Shown: in pieces, positions 4,801 through 52,662 of the stretch
Position numbering within the stretch: the stretch's first letter is position 1
Layout: every line of letters starts with the position of its first letter
Assembly: GCF_963576615.1 (NCBI RefSeq)
Contig: NC_088716.1
Span: forward strand, 63,662,728-63,726,727
DNA: 64,000 nt
Direction: 5' to 3'
From: Watersipora subatra
Taxonomy: Eukaryota > Bryozoa > Gymnolaemata > Cheilostomatida > Watersiporidae
Notes under the pieces: model-generated
What the model saw: the letters and a program-made list of their open reading frames with translations, nothing else
The model's database searches: none
What the model was told of the DNA's origin: nothing
Translations under genes and position numbers: made by a program

Positions 4801-7800
4801 CAAACATAAATTTATTTTAATACACACCTAATAACTAAAAATATAATTCGTTCACTCTTTAGTTTATTTGTCTCAAGTATAATGAATACGTGCAATCGCT
4901 TATATCTCCGCAAACCTATTATATTTATTATTATTATTTATTATTATTATATATACATGTATATATATTTATCATAAATATTTATTCATATATCCCTGAT
5001 GTAAACAGCTCACTCAAAAAGACGCATTGTATAATTATGTAAGCATATATAGAAAGTGGTGCTCACCCATGATTGTTGCTGTGCTGGTTTTTTCAAAAGC
5101 TGACGCTGTGCATTCCTTTTCCGTGCCTGTTGCAAAGTTTTGGCGGATATTAGTTTTTTCCTGTACTGAATCTACTTTTTCCAAGCTGTTTTCATCTTGC
5201 GCCAATTCTTCGTCTCTAGTTGTTGAGGAAGCTTGAGACAAGGGTGTGTGTGTTCTCTTGTGGGAAACATCATCACCGATTAGGCTTTCTATAGATGAAC
5301 TGCACTCTTTGATACAAGATGCTTCTGGCAAGGCTGGGGAAAGTAGTAGCGAAGATGAGCACCGCTGCTGCACATCCTCTCCTTCTTGCTTAACAACTTT
5401 TTTGATAAAAATAAAACCATCTTTAGGATAGTTGTCAACTTTATCTGTATACGACTGGGATCTAAGTTTATGTGGTGTTTGGGTTTTCGTTTCTGACAAA
5501 TTTGGTAATGAGGAGCAGCTCTTCATTTTTGGAGCAGGATCGTTGTTATTCTGCTCGAAAACTTCTGATGTGTTCACTTCTTTGCATTGTTTACTGCGCG
5601 TAGTTGGAGGGTGGGTGCAAAGGAAGGAAGAAATGTTTTCCGTTGGAAAACCCTTTTCTTCATAAAAAGTTGCTTCATCACGTTGAACAGAGTTACTCCG
5701 GCTACCCGCACCATGAGAATGAAAGCTGACCGCATCATCATCATCGCTTGTCAGGTATTCATCTGCTTGCAACAGAATGCTAAATATGATCAGAAGTTCT
5801 TGTGAAGGTCAATAGAACATTTATGTGTTACATGTAGGCCTACATGTTACTTGACCAAACTAAACTTGTAGATACTGATATACTAGTAGACGCTGATATA
5901 CAAGTAGACGCTGATATACTAATAGACACTGATATACTAATAGACACTGATATACTAATAGACACTGATATACTAGTAGATACTGATATACTAGTAAACA
6001 CTTATAAACTAGTAGACACTGATATACTAGTAGATGCTGATATACAAGTAGACGCTGATATACTAATAGACACTGATATAATAATAGACACTGATATACT
6101 AATAGACACTGATATACTAGTAGATACTGATATACTAGTAAACACTTATAAACTAGTAGACACTGATATACTAGTAGATGCTGATATACAAGTAGACGCT
6201 GATACACTAGTAGACACTGATCTACTAGTAGACACTGATATACTAGTAGACACTGATATACTAGTAGATACTGATATACTAGTAGACGCTGATATACAAG
6301 TAGACGCTGATATACTAATAGACACTGATATACTAATAGACACTGATATACTAATAGACACTGATATACTAATAGACACTGATATACTAGTAGACACTGA
6401 TATACTAGTAGACACTGATATACTAGTAAACACTTATAAACTAGTAGGCACTGATACACCAGAAGACACTGATATACTAGTAGACACTGATATACTAGTA
6501 GACACTGATATACTAGTAGACACTGATATACTAGTAGACACTGATATACTAGTAAACACTTATAAACTAGTAGACACTGATACACCAGAAGACACTGATA
6601 TACTAGTAGACACTGATATACTAGTAGACACTGATATACTAGTAGACACTGATATGCTAGTAGACACTGATATACTAATAGACACTGATATACTAGTAGA
6701 CACTGATATACTAGTAGACACTGATATACTAGTAGACACTGATACACCAGAAGACACTGATATACTAGTAGACACTGATATACTAGTAGACACTGATATA
6801 CTAGTAGACACTGATATGCTAGTAGACACTGATATACTAGTAGATACTGATATATTAGTAGGCGCTGATATACAAGTAGACGCTGATATACTAGTAGACA
6901 CTGATATACTAATAGACACTGATATACTAATAGACACTGATATACTAATAGACACTGATATACTAGTAGATACTGATATACTAGTAAACACTTATAAACT
7001 AGTAGACACTGATACACCAGAAGACACTGATATACTAGTAGACACTGATATACTAGTAGACACTGATATACTAGTAGACACTGATATACTAGTAGACACT
7101 GATATACTAGTAAACACTTATAAACTAGTAGACACTGATATACTAGTAGATACTGATATACTAGTAGACACTGATATACTAGTAGACACTGATATACTAG
7201 ACAAATGTACATGGCCATGCTTGCTCACCTACCCTTGCTTAAGAGTTGATCTAAATTCAATTTCTTACTTTGTGTGATTCAGTTAAGATGCAGCAGGAAT
7301 TTTATTTATTGTCTTTCAGGCAGATAAAAAGAAGTCTTATATTATTGTTTTAGCTCTGAGCTCTATCAATTCTTGCTCTATTGTTTGTGAAAAAAACAAA
7401 AATATCTCATCAGGCATTGTTTAGTTTAGTATTTCTATGTTCTTGCAAACTTACTGTAGAAATGTGGACTGTTGCTGCATTCTGATGCGGAAATGTCGGA
7501 TCCCCAATCACTTATAGATTCATCTTCTTCCTTTACCTCCTCTTGCAAACTTTGAACAAAGGCTGCAACCATCCTTCTTCTGTCTGCTTCTTCACTTGGA
7601 AATTCGCAGTCTACAATCATTCTAAGGTTCATGTGCATCAGTAAACTCATGTCTATTGTTTTCCACAAGAGATCTTCCCTGTTCATTTGAGTTCTAAAGC
7701 AGGAAGCTTCCCTGTAAAAACAAACTTTCGGTACCACATTGGTTTCCTTGAGCTGACTTCTGCATAATTATATAGATACGTATAGTCTTTAAAAACATAT

Positions 7801-10800
7801 TAACTGTAAGATTTTTTACGCTATATTGGTTATCTTTTTTGTGTATTTTTTCAATAAGGAATGCATTGGTTTGGCTTGTCAACACACTATGTATCATCTT
7901 AAACTAGCAGACAAGTTAGTAAAACATTTAAATGAACATGGCAAAAGTCGCTGACAGTGACCTGTATATTTGATATGAAGCGTTGAGTAGGGCAAAGTGA
8001 GCCCAAGGCTTTTGACCCTTCAAATCTGCCCACTTGAAGAGCTAGATTTGATGGTTTAAGTAACAAACTAATGTTCAAGCTAGTAGAGGAAACACAAGTC
8101 TATAGAAGAACTAGTATATTCGGAGCCAACACCATAGAAAAAGAGGCAATGCGTTATAATATACTTGTTAATAATAAACAAAGGTCTATCAGTTTACATG
8201 TCTATTGGTTCATTTTAAACATTGTTTTAAGAAAATTGGAATAGTCTAAGTTAGCTGCCGAGTTTGGTGTCAATGTTGACCTATCCCTATGGGAAGAGTG
8301 CCTTAGCCTTGTAAGAAGGATGGGTGATTTAGCCTCAGATGAAGGTTAGCTTAGGTCAAGAGGAGAGCTGACCTAGATCTGTGAAAGAGGTGACCTATTT
8401 CTGCAAGAAATGTGCCCTCGACCTGTAGAAAAGGTGGCCTAGCTTTGTGTAAAAGGTGACCTACAGGTAGCAGCTCTCTGGTATCAATAAAGAACACACC
8501 TGGTATCAGAGCCCTGTGGCATCAGAGGGAACAATCTAGTTCTGTGTAAGCTGATCGAGGCCTATAGAATTGTCTAGCTAATCTAGTTGGAGGAACTAAC
8601 CTAGCTCTGTAGAACGGTTTGACCTAGCTTTGTTAGAAGAACTGACCTAGCTCTTTAGAGCGGCTTGACCTAGCTTTGTTAGAGGAGCTGACCTAGCTCT
8701 GTACTAGGGTCTAACCTAGTCATGTTAGAGGGACTGACCTAGCCTGGTAAAAACGTTCAAATTAGCTTTGTTAGAAAAACTGAGCTAGCCCTGTAGAAAG
8801 GTCCAACCTAGCTTTGTCAGAGAGACTGACCTAGCCGGGTAGAAACGTTCAAACTAGCTTTGTTAGAGGAACTGACCTAGTCCGGTAGAAACGTTCAAAC
8901 TAGCTTTGTTAGGAGAACTGAGCTAGCCCTGTAAAAAGGTCCAACCTAGCATTGTTAGAGTAACTGGTGTAACTTTTGGGAAGGCTGATGATACTCTACA
9001 GAAGTGCTAACCTAAATCCAAACAGGCTTCTTCAATTTTTTCTAGGCTTGAACGACTGCTGTTCGTGTGACCTTCATGGTTCATACTTAAACGTCTCATC
9101 ATACTTCTTCCCGCTTCTGAAACCTTCGAAAATGTTCCCTTTATAAAATCGTATGTGTTCCGACGTGAACCTTGTCCTAAAACAAATGGCAAACTGACAA
9201 GCATTTAGATGAGATGAAATGTTTGTAGATGTCATATGTACACCGTGTGTAGATGTCATATGTACATCGTGTGTAAGTGTCATATGTACACCATGTAGAG
9301 ATGTCATATGTACACCGTGTGTAGATGTTATATGTACACTGTGTGTAGATGTCATATGTACACATGGTGTACATATGAAATGTACACCGTGTGTAGATTT
9401 TATATGTATAATGAAACAGAAAATTGAATTTGATAAGATAATACACAACACGAATTGGCTTTGGAATTATTGCTTCAAACCTTTTTGCTTTTTCAAAAGA
9501 TTTACAAGCTGGATATCATATCCGATACTAACAGAAATAGAGAGTTCGCCATTTTGAGTCTCTGCAGAGACAGAGGGTATGAGCCATCCTGACTCTATGC
9601 AGAGACAGATGGTATGTGCCATTCTGACTCTACAAAGAAAGAAGGTATGTACCATCCTAATTCTCTACAGAGATGGAAGGTATGTGCCATCCTGACTCTC
9701 TGCAGAGATAAAGAGTATGTGCCATTCTGACTCTCTGCAGAGACAGAAGGTTTTTGCCATCCTGACTTTCTGCAGAGACAGAGGGTATGCACCATTCTTA
9801 CTCTCTGCAGAGACAGAGGGTATGTGCCATCCTGACTCTCTGCAGAGACAGAGGGTATGCACCATCCTGACTCTCTGCAGAGACAGAGGGGGTGTACCAT
9901 CCTGACTCTATGCAGAGACAGAAAGTATGTGCCATCCTGACTCTCTGTAGAGACATAGGGTATGTGCCATCCTGACTATCTGCAGAGACAGAGGTAATGT
10001 GCCATCCTGACTCTCTACAGAGACAGAGGGTATGTGCCATCCTGACGCTCTGCAGAGACAAAAGGTATGTACCATCCAAAATATTTGCAGAGACAGAGGG
10101 TATGTGATGCCATATATACATGTATGTAGAATGATTTGCTTATTCAAGTGATAGGAACTGCTTTGACCCTATCAATCTTTTAACAGCCAGGCTGCCAGAG
10201 GCTTGCCATATGATAACGTAATTGAACAAAGGTGAAAATTGTCTTTTTGATTCATTCATTGGTCATTAATTAATGTTCTAATTAATGTTCTAAATTAATG
10301 GTCTAATTGATAGGATAATTAATGGATTGCATGGCATTTAATGAGGCATATAGAGAATAACTCTGAGTTTATGATTCTGTCTAGGTGTCAATGATTGCCA
10401 GCATGTGTACCTCTATAGTGTACCTTTATAGTGCACCTCTTTGGCATGTATAAAAAGTCTATGAGCACCATAAGAAGAAACTATAGCTAGTTGTCCGCAA
10501 CTCACCCAATGATCGACGGCTGCTCACACTTAGAATGTCATCATCAGGAAGTACCTCTGTCACAAGTATCTGGGGGGCTGACAAAGCCCTTCCTGAATAT
10601 CGTGTCAACATGATTTTCACAGCTTCTATCTCCTCAGGATCATTGTCCGAGTGACCCAAATATAAGTCTAGGGCTGTAAGCATAGCTCAGTTATACAGTT
10701 TCATTGATTGGAGAGGTAAGCCATGAAAGTTAAAATTAATATGTTTATAATATATAATATAAATAATATTTGGCAGCAAAATTTGGCAAAGTCTGATATA

Positions 10801-19189: not shown

Positions 19190-19860
19190 TTAGGCTATGT
19201 ATATAGTTGAATAAGAAACACCAACTACAAATTACTGATAATAAATAAAGGTCGACCTGTACGGAACCTTTCATTAGAGATCCCTTTGCTTTAATATAAC
19301 AGTCAATAGACCAGCCAATCACTGGCTTATATTAGCCAATAGACAGCCAATCACTGGCTCATATCAGCCAATTGAACAGCCGACCACTAGCTAATATCAG
19401 CCAATAGAACAGCCAGTCACTAGCTGTTACCAAATTATTTCACAAATTTACACGCCACACTGACCGCCTGCTTAGAAGTAATATTCTTTCAATAGCTGGT
19501 CTAATGTATTACTCTAATCACAATGACAATAAAAGAAAACAACAAGTTTAAATCTGTCTGTGGTAAAATAGAATAATAGAAAATAGCCATAATTGTGACA
19601 ATTACAAACAATCTTTTTCTATCAGCTTGTTGAAAGAAACACGTCGTTTGCACCCGGAATAATTGCTCTCTCAATCGCTCACCACACTTGCTTCTCTTTC
19701 TTCTCTTCACACCAAACAGACAATAGTTGAGAAGTTTTACGCATTTAATGGGTAAAATAATTAAAATAATTACGATTTGATGGTAGAGTAAAACATTTTC
19801 AGGTGATAAAAGCGGTTGGTTGATGATTAGGTATTGAAACAAGAGCTAAACAGGAAACTC
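19190..19860 (-). repeat. Dispersed repeat, copy 1 (with shared 113-codon frame)
   Basis: About 93-95% identical by eye to 28220-28800. Both copies keep a 113-codon minus-strand frame (19501-19842 here) containing VKRRKRSKCGERLREQLF. Most of the roughly ten codon differences change the amino acid, so the frame looks unselected. The flanks also align. This copy has an extra small array of CAGCCAATCACTGGCT units at 19300-19430. Confidence 0.7.
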
Positions 19861-28219: not shown

Positions 28220-28805
28220 TGAATAAGAAACTACTTTGACAGACTAAAGCCTACCAATTACTGACAATAAATAGAGGTTGTGTATGGAACTTTTTGTCTG
28301 ACTGTTTTGCCTTAGTGATCTCTTTACTTTAATATATCAGTCAATAGACGAGTCAATCACTAGCTGTTACCAAATGATTTCACAAATTTACACGCCACAC
28401 TGACCGCCTGCCTGGAGGTAATATTCTTTCAACTGCTGGTTTAATGTATTGCTCTAATCACAATGACAATAGAAGAAAACAACAAGTTTAAATCTGTCTG
28501 TGGTAAAATAGAATGGTAGCAAATAGCCATAATTGTGACAATTACAAACAATCTTTCTCTATCAGCTTGTTGAAAGAAACACGTCGTTTGCACCCGGAAT
28601 AATTGCTCTCTCAATCGCTCACCACACTTGCTTCTCTTTCTTCTCTTCACACCAAACAGACAATAGTTGAGAAGTTTTAAGCATTTAATCTGTAAAATAA
28701 TTGAAATAATTACGATTTGATGGGAGAGTAAAACATTTTCGGGTGATAAAAGCGGTTGGTTGATGATTAGGTGTTGAAACAAGAACTAAACAGGAAACTC
28801 CTAGC
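28220..28805 (-). repeat. Dispersed repeat, copy 2
   Basis: Second copy of the repeat at 19190-19860, same orientation, with the matching 113-codon frame at 28441-28782. It lacks most of the CAGCCAATCACTGGCT subarray. Confidence 0.7.
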
Positions 28806-31036: not shown

Positions 31037-32513
31037 TCATCTTTTGAGGTTATAAAATGGTGCAGTTGAGAGAGGTATCTGCACAGTGAGACTAGACGTC
31101 GGACTAACAGGTTGTGCAGGTGAAGAAGGCGGTGGCAAGTGTCCTGTTTCCTTCATCTGTCGCAGAGTATCAGCTTTCAGAGCTTGCAACGAAAACTCAT
31201 GGGAGGCTGTGAGTGGAAGCCTTGGCAAGAATGGAGCTTTTAGAAGTAGACATCGAGCGCACATGCAAAATAGTTCACCAGTGCAAATGGCTCCAAACAC
31301 GGAAGAGACAGGGGTGGTCAAACCAGTAGATTGGAATGAAGCTGGTGCTGTTGGCATTGTGGAGTTGGCTGCTCTTACAGCTTTTATCTGTTGGTTCGCC
31401 TTTATGTCTGCTACCTGCAAAGGCAAGGGGAAGTGCTAGAGAGCATGGTAACTAAGTGAAAATAATTAATGCTTCTTCGGTAGTGAGACATAGCACGCTC
31501 ACGCGGCATATCTGAGTTCGTTAAAATTTTAGTAGCCACTACCTGGCATATCCAAGCAACCAATGAAACTATCTTTTGGAAACAGTTTGTACAGTTACCA
31601 CTACAGATGCCACAAATAGCTAACCTAGAGTAATCCTTCAATTTGAGCAACAAAAAGTGACCTATAGTATTGACCCCTAAAAGTAACGCAATGACACGCC
31701 TACGAAAATAGTGCACAAGTATGCTTACCATCTTCTGCATGTCATCTAAGTTCTTCTGCAAAGAGACTATATAGTTGCGAGCGAGAACCATAGTAGATAT
31801 TTTAGATAGCTTTCTAACTGAAGGGTTTTTGCTATAGGGCATCACTTCTCTTAGGCTGTCAAGAGCGTGGTTTAGATCATGCATTCGTTGTCTTTCTCTC
31901 GCATTCACCTAAAACCCATCATAAAATCTAGTAACAATCATTTCACTAAAATTTCTTGAGCCTTCGCTGTCTCCTTGATGTCCTATTGTAGAATTAACTC
32001 ATAGAGCAGGTAACTCTACCTTTAGCCTTGGTTTCTGAACTTTATACAATACATTTGATAATACAAGTGACTCTACCTTTAGTCTTAGTTCCTGAACTTC
32101 TTCGTTACTCATATCTGCGCTCTCTATAGACTTGGGTACTTGGTCAAGTCTCTTCCGCACATTTCGAACGTATGGTACCCCATACGTATCCAGCCTCTGG
32201 AAGAGTGGAATTAATTATGAACGTAATCTTGTACAAACTCAAGGTTACTGTACAATTCTAGTAATATTCTCTCTGGCGGTACTAACAGCAACCTGTGTGA
32301 GTAGTTAAATCAAACTAGCTACTCAAGGATCAAGTAAATGCTATGGACTTGATGCTTGTCAAAAATTTTAACTTCATCTACTTCCTAATAGCAATAGTAT
32401 TTGATGCAGCCTTCTATATTTTTCGCGAGACTGTTATGAAAGTGTTGCAAAAAGCTGGAAAAAGTGCATACCTCCTTGCGTTGCGCCTGGCCGTATGTCA
32501 TTGGGGTGTCCAT
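31037..32513 (-). CDS. Olig-family bHLH transcription factor, complete
   Basis: Four exons: 32513-32472, 32196-32077, 31908-31729 and 31414-31037, all introns phase 0, total 720 nt (239 residues plus stop). Exon 2 ends in EVQELRLK and exon 3 opens [13 protein letters not shown], giving the basic region. The rest of the bHLH follows ([36 protein letters not shown]). Basic-region ERxR and the PSVRKLSKI helix-2 start are typical of the Olig/bHLHe22 group, nuclear E-box-binding regulators of neural fate (family knowledge). The last exon is Pro/Ser/Thr-rich and has no recognised domain. The ATG chosen gives [14 protein letters not shown]. An acceptor-like TTATCTTGTAG just upstream implies a separate 5' non-coding exon. 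The precise paralogue cannot be decided here. Confidence 0.86.
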
Positions 32514-35027: not shown

Positions 35028-38000
35028 TTATTCACTGTCTGGTTTGTCATTATCCATCCAGCTAGAAGACGACTCCGAAAATTTTGTGAGGCTTGAATTA
35101 CATATAGGAGGCTCTGAAACGAAAAATATATGTAAAGATGTGCTTTATATATTAGTTAGTTTATTAACTAAATGTAAAAATTACAAAAAAAAGAAATCAT
35201 CTGATTTCCTCATCGTGATGATCATCTGATCAAATCTATGATTTGATCAGATCTATGATATGATCACCCAAGTATGTGGAAAACATAAAACTATTACTGC
35301 AGTTTGTCAAAAGCAGAAACTACAAGAAGCTTTATATAAATAGAAACGGTGATGCGTGTTAAAGTGTATGTATACATGGAACGGTAGAATGCATCAATGA
35401 CATGAAGGAAACTGTAAAACCAAATAAAAATAAAGACATTCACTATAAACTATCAAATTAGAAAAATATACAAAAAATGTAATGTTATAAAATTTACTAG
35501 TTATGGAGTTGTGTTGCCTTGCCGATAGTTCTCGGGTGTACAAGTCTGTTGGTATACAAACCTGGAGCTATAAGATTGAGTGTCTGATGCAGTATGATGG
35601 CTGTTAGCCCCCATATTTTGTAATTACCGCCCAAAAATATGGGGGTTGTATAGCCCCCTGCTGGTGGAGGTGAATATGTTGTCTGAGCAAAGTTCTTTGC
35701 TGAACAAAGAGAGAGAATGTCTCGTGTAAAGACGCAATCAACCTGAAAATAAAAGATTTGTAATTACATATGAAAGATGCGATCAAACTAAAATAACAGC
35801 AGGGCACTGAAAACAGGTTGGATGACAAGCGCAGGCTATAACCTCTAGAGGTAGGGGCAGGGGTAACCTATGGCTCTTAAGCCATATGTGGCTCTTTTGA
35901 TGATTGCATCTGGCCCTTTGATAAATCAGTGGAGAAATAATCCATAAATTGGCTGTTAATTTAATCAACATAATAATGCAAATAATGCTGAAATTACAGT
36001 AATAAAAATCGAAATGAAAAATAACGTCAGTTTAATAAAGTTATATTTTCATTTGCAACTTTTTGATGTGGCGCTCGCAGCAGTTTCTAGTTATGAGAGT
36101 TTCTAGTGCTTTCTGTACTACTCTCTGCGCTGGCTGAACAGAGACCGCACTAGTCAGTTTTAGACCAAAAGGTAAACCCTTCAAACCAAAAAACGGCAAA
36201 AAGAAAAAATTGTAATTTGAACTCTAAAATTGTTTAAACATACTAAATTTGCTGGTCTTGCTTTTCAATTTTGTTTTCGAAATTTGAAATATACATACGG
36301 GTATCTAAGAATTAAATTTTGAAACATGTGGGTGTTTTTGGCTCTCTCAGTCAAAAACGTTCCTGACCCCTGCTCTAGATGACTGATACAGTATTTCAGC
36401 ATGTCATTACTGATACAGTATGTCAGCATGTCAATACTGATACAGTATGTCAGCATGTCATTACTGATACAGTATGTCAGCATGTCATTTCTGATACAGT
36501 ATGTTAACATGTCCCTACTGGTACAGTATGTCAGCATATCATTACTGATACAGTATGTCAGCATGTCATAACTGATACAGTATGTCACCATGTCATAACT
36601 GATACAGTATGTCAACATGTCATTACTGATACAGTATGTCAGCATGTCATAACTGATACAGTATGTCACCATGTCATTACTGATACAGTATGTTAGCATG
36701 TCATAACTGATACAGTATGTCAGCATGTAATAACTGATACAGTATGTCAGCATGCCATAACTGATACAGTATGTCAGCATGTCATTACTGATACAGTATG
36801 TTTGCATGTCCTTACTGATATAGTATGTAAGTATGTCGCTATGCCTACAGCATGTCAGTATGTCACAACAGCTACAGTATGTCACTATGGCTACAGCATG
36901 TCAGTATGTCACTACGGCTACAGCTTGTCAGTATGTCACTATGGCTACAGCATGTCAGTATGTCACTACGGCTACAGCTTTTCAGTATGCCACTATGGCT
37001 ACAGCATGTCAGTATGTCACTACGGCTACAGCTTGTCAGTGTGTCATATCTCTGCACCTTTGACATTACTATAGCGTTAATTCTGTAATTACTAGACGTA
37101 CTTTAGAAAACAAAATTAGATAAATTCACTGATGGTTCTCAGACATACCTCATCGTAGTTGAGCTCAAAATTTTCCACATCAATTTTTCCTAAATTAGCT
37201 AGAATTGGAGTTATCTGCACATCGCCAGTCTAAAATATGAGTGAAAATGTCATGAAACCAAAGCAAAAAATTGTACAATTGTACAAGTCTACCGGCAAAT
37301 AATTTATAGACCTGGATTATTGAATAGTTACTGCTTTCAGCAGTCAGCAAGAGATTGTCACTTGTAAACCATGTGGCATCTCTGCTATGACCTATGACCT
37401 ATGCTCTGCCACTGATACCTCTTTTTAATTTAACTATGCACTGCTCACTACTCAACAACTGTATGATATATTATATGATATGATCGTATGCTATTATTAC
37501 ATCAATTGTCAAAAACTTCTGCCTCATCTTGCATTTGCATAGACACTCCAAGAACAAGAAAGAGCTACTTGTAAAGCACTTGCAAACGAGACATAGAACT
37601 CGAACTTTGTAAATGTAAGGTTCATGAGGAAAAATAATCAGGTAATAGTAAGGTAAGGGTAGTATAAGAACATAGCCTGTAAGGTAATGGTAGTATAAGA
37701 ACATACCCTGTAAGGTAATGGTAGTATAAGAACATACCCTGTAAGGTAATAGTAGTATAAGAACATACCCTGTAAGGTAATGGTAGTGTAAGAACATACC
37801 CTGTAAGGTAATAGTAGTATAAGAACATACCCTGTAAGGTAATGGTAGTATAAGAACATACCCTGTAAGGTAATAGTAGTATAAGAACATACCCTGTAAA
37901 GTAATGGTAGTATAGGAACATACCCTGTAAGGTAATAGTAGTATAAGAACATAGCCTGTAAGGTAATGGTAGTATAAGAACATACCCTGTAAGGTAATGG

Positions 38001-41000
38001 TAGTATAAGAACATACCCTGTAAGGTAATAGTAGTATAAGAACATACCCTGTAAAGTAATGGTAGTATAGGAACATACCCTGTAAGGTAATGGTAGTATA
38101 AGAACATACCCTGTAAGGTAATGGTAGTAAAAACACATACCCTGTAAGGTAATGGTAGTATAAGAACATACCCTGTAAGGTAAAGGCAGTATAAGAACAT
38201 ACCCTGTAAGGTAATGGTAGTATAAGAACATACCCTGTAAAGTAATAGTAGTATAAGAACATACCCTGTAAGGCAATGGTAGTATAAGAACATACCCTGT
38301 AAGGTAATGGTAGTATAAGAACATACCCTGTAAGGTAATGGTAGTATAAGAACATACCCTGCAAGGTAATGGTAGTATAAGAACATATCCTGTAAGGTAA
38401 TAGTAGTATAAGAACATACCCTGTAAGGTAATAGTAGTATAAGAACATACCCTGTAAGGTAATGGTAGTGTAAGAACATACCCTGTAAGGTAATGGTAGT
38501 GTAAGAACATACCCTGTAAGGTAATGGTAGTATAAGAACATACCCTGTAAGGTAATGGTAGTATAAGAACATACCCTGTAAGGTAATAGTAGTATAAGAA
38601 CATACCCTGTAAGGTAATGGTAGTATAAGAACATACCCTGTAAGGCAATGGTAGTATAAGAACATACCCTGTAAGGTAATGGTAGTATAAGAACATACCC
38701 TGTAAGGTAATGGTAGTATAAGAACATACCCTGCAAGGTAATGGTAGTATAAGAACATATCCTGTAAGGTAATAGTAGTATAAGAACATACCCTGTAAGG
38801 TAATAGTAGTATAAGAACATACCCTGTAAGGTAATGGTAGTGTAAGAACATACCCTGTAAGGTATTGGTAGTATAAGAACATATCCTGTAAGGTAATAGT
38901 AGTATTAGAACATACCCTGTAAGGTAATGGTAGTATAAGAACATACCCAGTAAGGTGATGGTAGTATAAGAACATACCTTGTAAGGTAATGGTCATATAA
39001 GACCATACCCTGTAAGGTAATAGTAGTATAAGAACATACCCTGTAAGGTAATGGTAGTATAAGAACATACCCTGTAAGGTAATGGTAGTATAAGAACATA
39101 TCCTGTAAGGTAATGGTAGTATAAGAACATACCCTGTAAGGTTATGGTAGTATAAGAACATACTCTGTAAGGTAATAGTAGTATAAGAACATACCCAGTA
39201 AGGTAATGGTAGTATAAGAACATACCCTGTAAGGCAATAGTAGTATAAGAACATACTCTGTAAGGTAATCGTAGTATAAGAACATACCCTGTAAGGCAAT
39301 AGTAGTATAAGAACATACCCTGTAAGGTTATGGTAGTATAAGAACATACCCTGTAAGGTAATAGTAGTATAAGAACATACTCTGTAAGGTAATGTTAGTA
39401 TAAGAACATACTCTGTAAGGTAATAGTAGTATAAGAACATACTCTGTAAGGTAATCGTAGCATAAGAACATACCCTGTAAGGTAATGGTAGCATAAGAAC
39501 ATACCCTGTAAGGCAATGGTAGCATAGGACCCCAGACATCAACATTTCCTAAATCTAGTCCTAATTCTTCCTCGCTTTCCCGCAGTGCTGTAGCCACAGA
39601 ATCAGTGTCACCTTCGCTCACCATACCTCCAGGAAAGCTAATAGGCATGGGAAATTATCGTCAATGAATATCAGATGAAGGAAAATCTATGGCTGTGAAT
39701 GTCCCTATGTACAATAATTATGATTAAAAGATAAGATGGTGTGCTGGATGCAACGATACTAAAAAAGAAAGTATATAAGAAATAATTTTGATGATTACCT
39801 GCGCCCATTTGAATAAATCAAGAAAAGACAACTAGAGCTGTCTATGACAACTTTTTTCGCACATACTTGCACAATATATTCACACAATAGCAGTCACTTC
39901 CTTTGTCTAAATTGTAGTAACTAGTATTACAAGAAAATCATACAGGTGATACTATAGTACTACAAGTATATTATACAGGTGATACTATAGTACTAGTATT
40001 ACATCATTTATCATATTATCATTTATACCTGATTTGGCCAGCGTGGTTTCGTAGATTATTTGATCTGAGAGTAAACACAATGGAGGGCTGACAATCTACG
40101 AAACACATTGGTATGAGCACAGCGGCTTGCTTGCTGACTCCACTATCCTCAGATTTTTTTGTCTTTAATGAGCTCTTCAAGGCTTGTAACTACATTGCGA
40201 AGGCAAGAATTAATAGGTATCAAAGCTGCATACTGTGCCATAAGCCACAAACATAACAAAAATGAATGGTTCAGCTTATAAGGTAATATATACATACCGG
40301 TAATCATAGGTAGAGTATCATGTAATAGTTTATATGATATACATACTAGTAATCATAGGTAGATTATCTTGTTATAGTTTATATGATATACATACTAGTA
40401 ATCATAGGGAGAGTATCATGTTATAGTTTATATGATGTACATGCTAGTAATCATAGGTAGAGTATCATGTTATAGTTTATATGATATACATACTGATAAT
40501 CATAGGTAGAGTATCATGTTATAGTTTATATGATGTACATACCAGTAATCATAGGTAGATTATCTTGTTATAGTTTATATGATATACATACTGATAATCA
40601 TAGGTAGAGTATCATGTTATAGTTTATATGATGTACATACCAGTAATCATAGGTAAAGTATCATGTTATAGTTTATATGATATACATACTAATAATCATA
40701 GGTAGAGTATCACGTTATAGTTTATATGATGTACATACCAGTAATCATAGGTAAAGTATCATGTTATAGTTTATATGATATACATGCTAGTAATCATAGG
40801 TAGAGTATCATGTTATAGTTTATATGATATCGATACCAGTAATCATAGGTAGAGTATCACATTATAGTTTATATGATGTACATACCAGTAATCATAGGTA
40901 AAGTATCATGTCATAGTTTATATGATGTACATACCAGTAATCATAGGTAAAGTATCATGTTATAGTTTATATGATATACATACTAGTAATCATAGATAGA

Positions 41001-41408
41001 GTATCATGTTATAGTTTATATGATATACATACCAGTAATCATAAGTAGAGTATCATGTTATAGTTTATATGATATACATACTAGTAATCATAGATAGAGT
41101 ATCATGTTATAGTTTATATGATATACATACCAGTAATCATAAGTAGAGTATCATGTTATAGTTTATATGATATACATACCAGTAATCATAGGTAGCTTAT
41201 TATATTATAATGATAAAGGCATCCAAATAAAATGTCTACTATCAGAGTTTCAATACCAGTATTTAACAAAGAGACTCACTTGAGCTTTGCATCTCTTTTT
41301 ATTACTTTCAGAGAGAAGGTCAACACGATCTAGACTGCTGCCTGTCCTTCTTATACAGCCCACTACCTGCAGTAGGATACACAAAATGAAACTCATCTCA
41401 CTGGCCAT
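35028..41408 (-). CDS. NUDT8: NUDT8-type Nudix coenzyme A diphosphatase, complete
   Basis: Six exons: 41408-41280, 40189-40029, 39637-39505, 37229-37149, 35742-35562, 35113-35028. Phases 0, 2, 0, 0, 1 all join; total 771 nt, 256 residues. The start is the first ATG after an in-frame stop (MASEMSF), followed by a hydrophobic stretch and GCIRR, a plausible mitochondrial presequence. Exon 2 carries VFTLRSNNLRNHAGQI, joined to SFPGGMV in exon 3: the CoA-Nudix signature (LRxHxGxxSFPGG). The Nudix helix follows with ALRESEEELGLD, supplying the metal-binding REXXEE glutamates. Exon 4 has ITPILANLGKIDV; exon 5 has VFTRDILSLC and IWGLTAIILHQTLNLIAPG, as in NUDT7/NUDT8 homologues. The family splits CoA and acyl-CoA to phosphopantetheine plus 3',5'-ADP. 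Introns 1, 3 and 4 are filled with minisatellites; the one in intron 3 starts at the donor itself. Confidence 0.9.
36388..36835. repeat. 27-bp minisatellite (TGATACAGTATGTCAGCATG)
   Basis: About 16 units of 27 bp in intron 4 of NUDT8. It passes directly into a second, related 27-bp array. Confidence 0.95.
36836..37050. repeat. Second 27-bp minisatellite (GGCTACAGCATGTCAGTATG)
   Basis: About eight units of 27 bp, alternating between a CTATGGCTACAGCATGTC form and a CTACGGCTACAGCTTGTC form, giving a 54-bp higher-order repeat. It shares AGTATGTC and CATGTCA words with the preceding array. Confidence 0.93.
37640..39531. repeat. 31-bp minisatellite made of an exon end plus its 5' splice site
   Basis: About 61 units of 31 bp. 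On the minus strand each unit is CTACCATTACCTTACAGG followed by GTATGTTCTTATA. The first unit is the actual 3' end of NUDT8 exon 3 (codons for LPLPYR) and its donor. All later units repeat both the coding end and the donor. The array is open in every frame on the minus strand (false ORFs of 449, 440 and 635 codons), so splicing at a later unit would not meet a stop. Confidence 0.97.
40285..41205. repeat. 49-bp minisatellite in NUDT8 intron 1
   Basis: About 19 units of 49 bp containing TAATCATAGGTAGAGTATCA and TGTTATAGTTTATATGATAT. Minus-strand units include GGTATGTATAT, a donor-like word, but no exon-derived part. Confidence 0.96.
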
Positions 41409-41409
41409 C

Positions 41410-41962
41410 TCACAACTCTATTTCCTAATATCTTTCCATCATATTTCTATGCTTTTAAATCGACTCCGTCATCCTTAAACTCGTTTACCTTGACCTCTGG
41501 TTCTTCCTGCTTTATCTAGCCCTACTCTGTCTGTAGAAAGAGCTCTACTATAAAATAGGAAGGTATGTAATCGCCAGAGTTAGGTTGACTCATTGTGAGT
41601 TTTGCCCAAACTTGGCCTGAAAGTTTCATGCAAAGTTTTACTGGTAAGTGAAAAGAATTTCATTTTTATTCATTAGAAAATTAAAAAAAATAATCGTTGG
41701 CTGAAGTGACTGAACTTTAGAGACAACCTAGCATCTGTTTCGGTGCAACAGGCATAATAAGCTCTATTAGAAAGAAAGTTGGCTAGAAAACACTTACAGT
41801 TAATTCCTGCAACTTCATGGGTAGTCTGAAAGTTAGAGAGCTCATCTTCCTGAAATTATACAGAATAATCATTGCATCACATCAATAAACATAAATCTAT
41901 AACAGTAGCATATATGTTATATACATATATATATAACATATATACGTGTAGCTATATATATA
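41410..41962. other. 5' flank of NUDT8
   Basis: Single-copy-looking AT-rich sequence upstream of the NUDT8 start on the minus strand. It should contain the promoter. No TATA or initiator element could be assigned. TA-rich near 41920-41968. Confidence 0.4.
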
Positions 41963-42388: not shown

Positions 42389-43556
42389 AACTAACTAGAG
42401 TGTGGAATAGGTTAATGTTACTTATCTTTGTTCCAGATTGATGTTTTATTCTGGGGTCACGACAGGTCTGTTTCGTGCTGGTGCACTCTTCAGGTGACTT
42501 GTGTTGAATGGCGGGTGGAGTTGCCTCTCCTGATGTTGTTGGTGGTGTCTGTAGCTCCGCCTCTGCCTGGATCGTATTGGCTGAGTAGGTATTTCTTGGA
42601 GTGTCTGCATGTATTGTTTATTTCATTTCTTTTGTTTAAGGTGGCTGTTTCTGGCCTGCAAATGATGTAATATTTTTCACTAAGGCACAGATGACATTTC
42701 TTTGTTTGGTTTGAATAAGGTCTAGCTTTCTGCATAATTTTCCATTTAATCCTGTAGCTTGCATTGTCATTCTTAAGTTTCCAGATGTGTTTACTAAGTT
42801 CTGTGCTGTTTTGCTTGTCACTGTGTGTGAAAGAGGCTGTGTGGTTTCTAAATCTGGATTTGAAGTCGGTTGTGCATAGTCCTATGTAGGTGCTCTCGGT
42901 GCCCGTATCTTCTCTAGTCACTATGGCCTGGTATATTATGTTTGTGGTTAAGCAGTTTCCATCTAGTGGGCAGTTGTTCCTTACTCTACAATTGCAGGCC
43001 CTGTTTGTAGTTGTGCTCTGCTGGCTGCTCAGCAGGCGTCTGTTGTGTGAATCTATGTGCTGTTTCATGTTCGGCATGCAAGAGTAGCTGAGTTTTAGTG
43101 TGTGTCTGTTAAATACTTTGTGCAGTGAATGGGTAGGCGGGAAACATGTATCTATAATGTTTATAAATTTTCTGCCTATATTTGTCTGTACGTCGGCGTT
43201 AAAAGGGGGGTTGTACCATGTTACGGGTCGCTTACGCTGTCTCTTGTTAGTCGCTGGCTGGGTCGGGATGTGTTTATATTTAAGTGTATGGTTATAACCA
43301 CTGTCATTGAGTGCTTTTTGGTAAGGGGGTGCTGCTTTGCTAAATTCATGCTCATTACTGGACAGTGTAGTTAGTCGCAAATTAATGTTGTGTGGTAGAT
43401 TTTTTATTACAGTAGGTGGGTGGTTACTGTTTTTGTGGACATAGAGTGTTGTATTGCTAGGTTTGGCATAGGGTGAGTAAGTGTTTGCATTAAGGTTAAA
43501 GGTTACGTCAAGGAAATTTACAGACTTTTTATTAGCTTCGATGGTTAATTTCAGAG
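42389..43556 (-). mobile_element. Penelope-like element, 5'-truncated, RT end plus GIY-YIG
   Basis: The minus-strand frame is open from 43556 to the stop at 42490. It begins inside the RT C-terminal part (SVNFLDVTFNLNANTY, then NSNHPPTVIKNLPHNINLRL and NEHEFSKAAPPYQKALNDSG). It continues through a linker (CNCRVRNNCPLDGNCL) to a GIY-YIG endonuclease (TYIGLCTTDFKSRFRNH, with ELSKHIWKLK). The order RT then GIY-YIG defines Penelope-like elements. There are no frameshifts in 355 codons. The catalytic RT core is missing through truncation. An inverted partial copy adjoins at 43553. A hammerhead lies 3' of the stop. Confidence 0.9.
42456..42498 (-). ncRNA. Hammerhead ribozyme of the Penelope-like element (left copy)
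   Basis: Stem I GTCAC/GTGAC, CTGAAGA, stem II GTGC/GCAC with loop ACCA, GAAA, stem III ACAG/CTGT with loop AC, and C at the cleavage site. All invariant positions are intact. It overlaps the last codons of the GIY-YIG frame, so the ribozyme and the coding end share sequence. Confidence 0.85.
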
Positions 43557-44188
43557 CACAACTACAAACAGGGCCTGCAATTGTAGAGTAAGGAACAACT
43601 GCCCACTAGATGGAAACTGCTTAACCACAAACATAATATACCAGGCCATAGTGACTAGAGAAGATACGGGCACCGAGAGCACCTACATAGGACTATGCAC
43701 AACCGACTTCAAATCCAGATTTAGAAACCACACAGCCTCTTTCACACACAGTGACAAGCAAAACAGCACAGAACTTAGTAAACACATCTGGAAACTTAAG
43801 AATGACAATGCAAGCTACAGGATTAAATGGAAAATTATGCAGAAAGCTAGACCTTATTCAAACCAAACAAAGAAATGTCATCTGTGCCTTAGTGAAAAAT
43901 ATTACATCATTTGCAGGCCAGAAACAGCCACCTTAAACAAAAGAAATGAAATAAACAATACATGCAGACACTCCAAGAAATACCTACTCAGCCAATACGA
44001 TCCAGGCAGAGGCGGAGCTACAGACACCACCAACAACATCAGGAGAGGCAACTCCACCCGCCATTCAACACAAGTCACCTGAAGAGTGCACCAGCACGAA
44101 ACAGACCTGTCGTGACCCCAGAATAAAACATCAATCTGGAACAAAGATAAGTAACATTAACCTATTCCACACTCTAGTTAGTTATAAC
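43553..44188 (+). mobile_element. Penelope-like element, inverted 3' copy
   Basis: Reverse complement of about 43022-42389 with no difference noticed by eye. The plus-strand frame 43561-44082 encodes the same GIY-YIG end. With the left copy it forms a palindrome of about 1.8 kb with a 530-bp unpaired centre. Both outer ends stop at the same sequence (CACACTCTAGTTAGTTAT). Inverted partial copies at one end are a known trait of Penelope-like insertions. Confidence 0.9.
44074..44116 (+). ncRNA. Hammerhead ribozyme of the Penelope-like element (right copy)
   Basis: Exact reverse-strand twin of the motif at 42456-42498: all conserved core bases, three stems and C at the cleavage site are present. 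Confidence 0.85.
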
Positions 44189-44239
44189 ACTCCGCACTTT
44201 TTAGAGCGTAGAGTGCTGTTAGCAGTAGGCCTGACAACT

Positions 44240-44243
44240 TATC

Positions 44244-44317
<74 letters not shown>
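44240..44317. repeat. (TA)n microsatellite
   Basis: About 35 TA units at the 5' truncation point of the following LINE. Confidence 0.95.
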
Positions 44318-44324
<7 letters not shown>

Positions 44325-45717
44325 GCTAATTCTTAAAAAAGGCCATTCTATGTTCACAGATGGCCTAAGAATGCCAAATGGTACCATTAAAGATATAGAA
44401 GAAGGGTACAAGTACTTGGGGATTATGCAAAGCAACATCAACCACAAAGCCGAGGTATGTCACAAAGCCATTACAGAATACAAGAAACGCCTTCGGCAGG
44501 TCTTACGGAGCCAGCTCAATGCCAAGAACCAAGTCATGGCAATAAATACCTACGCACTGCCAGTAATAAGATATCCAGCAGGCATAATAAAGTGGACTGA
44601 GGAAGCCATCAAAGAAACAGATATAGCAACTCGTAAACTGCTGACCATGCATGGAGCACTCCACCCAAAATCTGACACTACTAGATTGTATCTTGATAGG
44701 AAAAATGGCGGTAGGGGACTCAAAAGTGTACAGCAGACAGTGAAAGAAGAGGAGCAAAGCATCAAAGCATATGCAGCCTCCATGGCCATTTCAGATAAGT
44801 TGCTAGCTGAATTTCAATCGGCTGCTCTTACAACGGACCTACGCCCTGATGATGAGAAAATTGACTGGCACACAAAACCTCTTCATGGTGCTTACCACCA
44901 ACAAATATCTAAGGTTGGCGATCTTCACCAGACATATATGTGGCTGAACAAAGGAAACCTAACGGCCAATACAGAGTCGCTAATCATGGCAGCCCAGGAG
45001 CAAGTGCTCCCAACAAGGCAACTCCAAACAAAAATCTATCACACTAGAGACGATCCTAGATGCAGACTGTGCAAAGATGCGCCTGAGACCATCCAACACA
45101 TCATCAGTGGATGCAAGCAGCTAGCAGAAAACGCATACACTGAGCGGCATAATCATGTTGCAGGTGTTGTGTATAGAAGTCTATGTGATGAGTATGGCCT
45201 TAATAAACCACAACACTGGTGGGAAGCTCCTGGTAAGGTCAATGAAAATGACCGCGCTAAGATCCTCTGGGACTTCTACATCCGAACTGACAAGCATGTC
45301 CTAGCAAACCAACCAGATATAGTGGTGGTAGGCAGGGAAAACAAGAGGGCTACTATAATAGATATAGCAGTACCCAATGACTACAATATAGCCGGCAAAG
45401 AAAAAGAAAAGGTAGAGAAATATCTCCCTCTTGGAGAAGAGATTGAAAAATGCCGGAATGTAAGAACAACTGTAATACCAGTAGTCATTGGGGCACTGGG
45501 CGCAATAACACCGGCGCATAAAATGTGGCTTGCCCAAATACCAACAACAATCAACTCAGGTGAGTTGCAGAAAAGTGCGCTATTGGGAACAGCTAAGATC
45601 TTGAGGCGAGTGCTCAAACTCCCAGGTCTCTGGTAGGAGGCCCGAGTTAGAGCAGAATTTACCACCCATACTGGGTATCCGGGGTGAGGAAACAATTTTA
45701 TATATATATACATGTAT
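44318..45717 (+). mobile_element. LINE with restriction-like endonuclease, 5'-truncated
   Basis: The frame 44323-45636 (437 codons, intact) covers the part after the RT catalytic core: YKYLGIMQSNI, then INTYALPVIRYPAGIIKWT. It continues to a zinc knuckle, C-x2-C-x8-H-x4-C (CRLC...HIISGC), and then a PD-(D/E)XK nuclease (PDIVVVG, TIIDIAVPND). Zinc knuckle plus C-terminal restriction-like nuclease marks the R2/R4/NeSL group of LINEs. The 3' UTR is about 80 bp, ending GGGGTGAGGAAACAATTT and a TA run. There is no catalytic RT motif because of 5' truncation, so it cannot move by itself. Confidence 0.88.
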
Positions 45718-51560: not shown

Positions 51561-52662
51561 ATGTTCATCATAATATTTAATTATTGTTGGGCTGTGGGAT
51601 GCTCAGGTAGATCAGAGTTAGGCCTACAGGTGTTTCAATTTCCAAAAGATCCTGGAAGAAGGAATGCCTGTATTGTTAAAGTGGGCAGGTAAGATTTACG
51701 TTGTTTTTACTGTTTGCAGTTGATCATTGGTTTGATGTCCCTCGACATTTGGTAATGGCTTTATCTAAACACAAACTTGATGCTTATGTTGATGCTCGTT
51801 CATTTCTTGATGATTTTATACAAATAGTTCAGTCAATGCGGATAGGATTCAAGTTTGCATGGAAGCCAGTCTAAGCTGGTATTCACCTATCCACATGATC
51901 TGTACTCTACACTTGTGATGACATGCTTGACAAGATGGAGTTCTTACTCACCTCTAGGTTGACACAAGACTGTGTCGAGAGCCTTTTCAGCTTGGTAAGA
52001 TATAGAATTCCTGTACCAACAGCTAGATAATTTAAATATGCTTTAAAACTGATCACTGTGGCAGAGTATCTCAAACCGACCAAAACTTCCAACTACGTAG
52101 AAAATGAACGAGAGTACTTCGGAGATTTATTGCCATCTACCATAGAAGTACCAACTGCAGAGCCTCAGCTCATAAATATACTGCTGGTTACATGTGAGGA
52201 AATCAGATCAGCGGAAGAGTCACTAGATTACCTAGCTGACTATTGTCTACAGAGTTTGCTAAAGTTGAAGCAAGTATGTGAAAGTTGTTGCACTGGCCCA
52301 TCTAACACATCCAGTATTCCACACTGCAGGTCAGGTTAAAAAACTTTAAAGAAGGTGCTTTGTGTGAAGTTTCTGGTGACACATTTGCTCTATTAAAAAA
52401 GGGAGAGTCAGTCGTGAGAAACTTTGAACCTCATCTTAAAAATAAACACGTTGTTAGACACGTTGTTGGTTCTAAATGCATGGAGAATATTGATATGCCA
52501 TGTGAACTGCCAACTTGTCATCCTATATTACAGAAACTAGTGAAAAAGTTTGTGAATGTTAGAATTCATATTTTATGTAAAAAACACCCCTCCATCTCAC
52601 AGTCAGTACAGCTAGGTACCAAACGAATGGCCTTGCGAACACTAGCTCAGAATATTCATTAA
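51561..52662 (+). pseudogene. Internally deleted THAP/P-element-type transposase relic
   Basis: The ATG at 51561 opens NYCWAVGCSGRSE and FQFPKDPGRRNA, the start of a THAP zinc finger (C-x-C pair and the FPxDP motif), ended by a donor-like AG/GTAAGA at 51688. After a gap too short to hold the RNase-H-like catalytic region, 51740-52339 encodes the P-transposase C-terminal part (FIQIVQSMRIGFKFAW; FLLTSRLTQDCVESLFS; FKYALKLI), with in-frame stops after WKPV and TAR. The frame 52360-52662 continues it (KFVNVRIHILCKK). Catalytic core missing and several stops: dead as a transposase. Confidence 0.78.

Follow-up and report, generated by a model that had tools for sequence, protein, structure and literature searches.

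Minisatellite-like repeats lying across intron–exon boundaries, termed mirages, have been described in amphioxus in Adh3 and in the globin genes BflGb6 and BflGb9 (PMC3087553), and the amphioxus troponin C and PGBD5 genes carry them as well (PMC3902484). In the accessible text of these reports splicing seems undisturbed by the repeats (PMC3087553, PMC3902484), and copy number varies between alleles or somatic cells, with BflGb6 haplotypes of 6 and 3 units (PMC3087553). Arrays named mirages across exon edges were found for amphioxus only, in the accessible portions of a literature that included few subscription journals. Here we describe a 31-bp tandem array at the end of an exon of a NUDT8-like gene in the bryozoan Watersipora subatra, within a window of 64,000 nucleotides (NC_088716.1, positions 63,662,728 to 63,726,727), by which we mean the whole stretch of DNA analysed and from whose first letter all positions are counted. 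It has in common with the amphioxus mirages, as far as those are set out in the available text, tandem copies over an intron–exon boundary and AG/GT signals in many of the copies. The array is a real and large mirage, of a kind already described in amphioxus, and further arrays built in the same way occur elsewhere in the genome.

The NUDT8-like gene and its protein

The gene occupies 35028..41845 on the minus strand and, in a splice-consistent model, has seven coding exons for a protein of 258 amino acids (aa); there may be a further, untranslated 5' exon upstream. The exons are placed at 41798-41845, 41280-41366, 40029-40189, 39505..39637, 37149..37229, 35562-35742 and 35028-35113, and all introns of the model are GT...AG with matching phases. 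Exon 4 (FPGGMVSEGD...VWGPMLPLPYR), supported by the model and by a PDB alignment across its junction, ends in the 18 bases that form the exonic part of the first array unit; exon 5 (TGDVQITPILANLGKIDVENFELNYDE) is modelled as joined to the first donor of intron 4.

The protein carries a Nudix domain (Pfam NUDIX, 8.1e-09) and matches the coenzyme A (CoA) pyrophosphatase model PRK10707.1 of NCBIfam at 7.4e-27 and 94.2 bits, which is under that model's own cut-off of 134. Its residues 54-225 align with the CoA pyrophosphatase 1nqy (1.9e-14), so that the likeness to this enzyme family extends past the Nudix domain; NUDT7 chains come next and are the nearest animal entries among PDB chains. The name NUDT8, rather than NUDT7, follows a preliminary description of this DNA and a general sequence likeness, and we take it as a working label. 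In a genome search that scores best candidates only, all six exon matches (6/6) fell at this locus.

Structure of the 31-bp array

Tandem Repeats Finder (TRF) reports a single array of 31-bp period on the minus strand at 37648..39526, with 60.6 copies, 93% matches and zero indels. Cut in register, it consists of 60 full 31-bp units, from 39522 to 37663, followed by a 15-base stub that reaches 37648. Unit 0 reads CTACCATTGCCTTACAGG/GTATGTTCTTATG (here and below a slash marks a splice boundary or, in a protein, an exon junction) and joins the 18 coding bases at the end of exon 4 to the first 13 bases of intron 4; the 59 further full units all lie inside intron 4. Exon edge and intron edge are thus both contained in the repeated unit. 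The preliminary description had this composition and the size right (about 61 copies over 1.9 kb, starting at the exon, whose end the model places at 39505), but had assigned the array to exon 3, which in the seven-exon model is coding exon 4.

The 1.9-kb array is no chance match, and in a genome search that scores best candidates only and skips very common words, all of its matches (29/29) lay at this locus. TATG ends units 0 and 1 and likewise ends the exon sequence directly before unit 0 (CCTATG), and units after unit 1 finish differently, mostly in TATA. Within the array, 38620-38864 and 38248-38492 (together spanning 38248..38864) are an exact 245-bp duplication at a lag of 372 bases, or 12 units. 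Such an exact copy indicates recent copying of an array block and, in the one haplotype at hand, suggests that the array has changed recently.

Splice signals and the coding outcome of later donors

Each unit was claimed to offer a strong donor, and most do. GT is retained in 54 of 60 units and the complete AGG/GTATGT in 45, unit 0 among them, but the +1 G is altered in the other six (6/60), indicating that array donors are not strictly kept. By a general donor matrix, donor 0 (GT at 39503..39504) scores 7.7, the six donors of the gene 5.2-9.2, and 3.8% of 235 other intronic GTs score as high as donor 0. Its duplex with the 5' end of U1 was computed at -6.2 kcal/mol, within the -5.7 to -9.4 of the gene's donors; among 276 other GTs across the gene region, 7.6% pair with U1 equally well or better. 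The units were also said to hold an acceptor-like CTTACAG, which we confirm: the CAG one base before each unit donor has a median score of 8.7, a value that 1.4% of 212 other AGs in the introns attain, and the six real acceptors of the gene score 2.9-13.4. Since the donor sequence gives no ground for preferring copy 0, a choice of the first copy would have to come from position.

All 60 donor choices were translated. A normal C-terminus results from donors 0 and 3 only; the remaining 58 of 60 choices, six of them without GT, terminate early. Joining donor 0 to exon 5 yields the seamless 258-aa CoA pyrophosphatase homologue, which makes it very probable that this donor is the 5' splice site in use, as judged from the model, homology and the donor sequence. 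The resulting junction LPYR/TGDV lies within the part aligned with 1nqy, where the gap is one residue, so no array-coded residues are expected there. Donor 3 (AGA/GTATGT, GT at 39410..39411), the sole later donor that keeps both frame and C-terminus, adds three units (93 nt) in frame and gives 289 aa; its matrix score is 4.6, against 7.7 for donor 0.

In the exon's own frame a TAA at 39328..39330 in unit 6, found by frame scan, blocks in-frame extension farther into the array. Two more stops follow in that frame, at 39144 (TAA, unit 12) and at 38907 (TAA, near the end of unit 19), and a second minus frame is closed by TAA at 39397 (unit 4) and TGA at 38995 (unit 17). The third minus frame alone is open across the whole array, and the earlier statement that no minus frame contains a stop is therefore incorrect for two of the three. 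The claim that additions of three units are in frame survives for donor 3, beyond which no further donor gives an in-frame, full-length product. A ladder of protein lengths, the first of two proposals in the preliminary description, is unlikely because, of the 60 donors, only 0 and 3 lead to a full-length product and the second of these is a weakened site; the other proposal, a tolerated cluster of donors, fits the alignment of the first-donor join with CoA pyrophosphatase through the junction. Alleles that differ in length, or that lack the stop in unit 6, could offer more in-frame choices, and some leaky use of later donors may occur.

Tandem arrays at other exon edges in the genome

The assembly comprises 783.7 Mb in 239 contigs, among which C1-C11 are of 46-79 Mb; contig C9, 64.0 Mb long, ends some 0.3 Mb away from the window. 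Exons were sampled by Pfam search, which listed 142 kinase and 75 myosin-head matches; of these, 90 and 40 respectively were taken (275 kb in total, with flanks of at least 1.5 kb for the first 50 loci and about 0.3 kb for the other 80); kinesin exons (131 matches listed) stand outside every count. A donor could be called in 105 of 130 exons and an acceptor in 110 of 130, the others being dropped, and TRF arrays of period at least 15 were counted.

Five of 105 donors lie inside tandem arrays, as do one of 110 acceptors and none of 130 exon midpoints. In each of the five donor arrays the unit holds an exon end together with an intron start. They are made of two identical copies of 43 bp (L078), 2.7 copies of 111 bp (L084), 10.7 copies of 32 bp that continue to where the sampled stretch ends (L093, minus-strand reading of C3:66857950-66858790), 2.3 copies of 31 bp (L121) and units of about 33 bp (L092). 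The last was counted with the donor at 640 inside the array, although by eye the exon end is at 537, and its unit composition was read by eye with indels needed. The acceptor array (L080) has 3.2 copies of 58 bp. A sixth donor case beside the five counted is an array of seven 45-bp units that begins at the donor (L018); its next exon, joined to the first donor, reads HTFVGTPCWMAPE with a split glycine codon, and the gene is presumably OXSR1/STK39-like, with its joined kinase reading conserved. Copy numbers of these further arrays range from 2 to more than 10. In the kinase exon L093 the first copy retains GT, whereas the first G of the donor is changed to A in all nine visible later 32-bp copies; either one early mutation was then amplified, or decoys were removed before expansion. 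Separately, a 21-bp array of 37.9 copies starts less than 20 bases past a kinase donor (CC/GTAAGTATTTAGTTCAT...; L048, C8:65207800-65212800), with a unit that does not include the donor.

Donors exceed exon midpoints in array membership (p = 0.017); the difference between donors and acceptors is not significant (Fisher p = 0.11; 0.06 counting L018). Array coverage was 55/462 at intron positions 100-300 bases after donors and 26/437 at positions 100-250 before acceptors; intron positions taken from the same locus are not independent of each other, and the sampled kinase genes include some that are, by position, close paralogues. What can safely be said is that arrays across donors are tolerated and that none lies at a sampled exon midpoint. 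A bias of array birth towards donors is possible. More tentatively, and with doubt outweighing confidence, 5' splice sites may be a regular birthplace of minisatellites in this lineage, with about one donor in 20 bearing an array copied from exon end and donor, introns growing from their 5' ends, and a preference for the first donor hiding dozens of competent decoys.

Proposed origin and tolerance of the array

We consider it likely that the NUDT8-like array is a mirage that began as a tandem duplication across the 5' splice site, then expanded, and has stayed near-neutral through use of the donor nearest the exon. The first duplication may have come from slippage between an exonic CCTATG and the CTTATG that occupies bases 8-13 of the intron, and expansion after this first slippage would have produced the long array. 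The other 53 GT-bearing donors would mostly be ignored and the donor nearest the upstream acceptor used, whether through exon definition or because the site transcribed first is used first. Transcripts made from later donors would stop early and mostly be degraded, so that the consequence for the protein would be close to neutral; splicing at the exon-proximal donor would let the array be tolerated.

Several points weigh against this account. Use of the first donor is deduced from homology, and the state of the NUDT8 locus before duplication is reconstructed from the sequence of one species. The 45 units with the complete motif, unit 0 included, share an identical nine-base donor, and in experiments with duplicated donors the site closest to the downstream acceptor is often preferred; taken together, these make some use of later donors plausible. 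In the survey, arrays over donors were not commoner than at intron positions 100-300 past donors, and their excess over acceptors was not significant.

An explanation to which we lean slightly is that position alone accounts for the overlap: in minisatellite-rich DNA one array edge happened to fall in an exon, with no tie between array birth and splice sites. It is compatible with duplication and tolerance as proposed above and denies only a birth bias at donors. Tandem arrays make up 28% of the window, which is unusually array-rich, against 8% across the first 50 gene loci sampled, and an array overlapping one exon edge is therefore unsurprising in itself; that donor arrays do not rise above the level of the nearby intron points the same way. 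Nothing strong speaks against it, and the excess of donors over exon midpoints could also be explained by selection against exonic arrays.

Improbable, in our judgement, is an expression damper, in which some transcripts use later donors, gain premature stops and are degraded, so that array length tunes NUDT8 output. Most later donors have the same sequence as the first and the early-ending choices dominate, the stop lying at least 227 nt upstream of the last junction in 11 such rows listed, but the loss of the donor G from every visible later copy of L093 means that intact later donors are no general feature of such arrays. Least credible is the splice ladder, in which several array donors are used to give length-variable isoforms: for all its competent-looking donors and the in-frame three-unit step, the exon frame closes in unit 6, the one later full-length donor is weak, and the 31-aa insert would land within the aligned part of the enzyme.

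Three further ideas were set aside. Selection for an open frame is not supported, the exon frame being closed and about 10% of shuffled units being stop-free in all frames anyway; among substitution types, 3 of the 26 distinct types seen in the array make stops, against 20 of 93 possible. Selection for the donors themselves, as a landing array for U1, is not supported in view of the loss of the +1 G in the six units noted here and in L093. Exact recursive splicing at the CAG-G-GT junction is not favoured, because an extra G would remain and shift the frame.

Other arrays and features of the window

Two other TRF arrays lie in the introns of the NUDT8-like gene, both given on the minus strand: one of 49 bp in intron 2 (40288..41209), by eye not copied from the exon edge, and one of 27 bp in intron 5 (36382..37047), which starts about 100 bases past the donor and does not include it. 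By eye, neither holds exon-edge copies. Six donors of the neighbouring ankyrin gene, as judged by eye, all fall outside arrays; a 35-bp array at 9548-10106, by eye in an intron of this gene, has a minus-strand unit (CCCTCTGTCTCTGCAG/AG) that resembles an acceptor with its pyrimidine tract. An 18-bp array at 5838-7277 falls within long open frames, of 479 aa on the plus strand and 454 aa on the minus strand, whose translations would carry LVDTDI-type repeats.

Near-identical minus-strand open frames of 114 aa at 19504-19845 and 28444-28785 are, by eye, a dispersed repeat. Open frames at 42490-45636 look retroelement-like by eye, and one of them, 44212-45633, matches zf-RVT (8.1e-05, 23.6 bits, under the curated cut-off of 27.5). 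A bHLH domain (Pfam HLH, 7.5e-15), which looks Olig/Beta3-like in sequence, is encoded on the minus strand at 31414-31908. A DNA_pol_B match (4.9e-06) arose in one of 113 open frames scanned together (33188-63423); the open frame 52306-52659, tried as its source, gave no match.

Comparison with known systems

Work on how a 5' splice site is chosen among equal neighbours has usually relied on constructs that hold a few sites. In this natural gene a single exon is followed, at a spacing of 31 bases, by 54 GT-bearing donors, of which 45 share the same nine bases, and this array and the others of the genome together form a natural test of the first-donor rule among near-identical sites. The interest lies more in the genome-wide pattern and in this test of splice choice than in the product of the array itself.

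With regard to amphioxus, unit sizes in the available text are 10-72 bp for Adh3 and 150-160 bp for the globins (PMC3087553), compared with 31 bp in 60 units in the NUDT8-like array; splicing and instability are reported there, whereas the present array is known from genomic sequence alone. Human tandem repeats that alter gene structure have also been described, in what could be consulted of PMC2812944; unlike those, the array does not alter the NUDT8-like protein model, provided that splicing takes the first donor. PMC3087553 cites a model in which introns are gained when an AG/GT proto-splice site is duplicated in tandem, with a potato case in PMC4974935. As in that model, to the extent that these sources present it, every unit pairs an acceptor-like CAG with a donor and so offers raw material for intron gain; unlike it, the units lie within an existing intron, no new intron has formed, and the CAG stands one base before the donor. 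The array carries a structure known from amphioxus into another lineage and supplies raw material on which models of how introns grow and are gained can draw.

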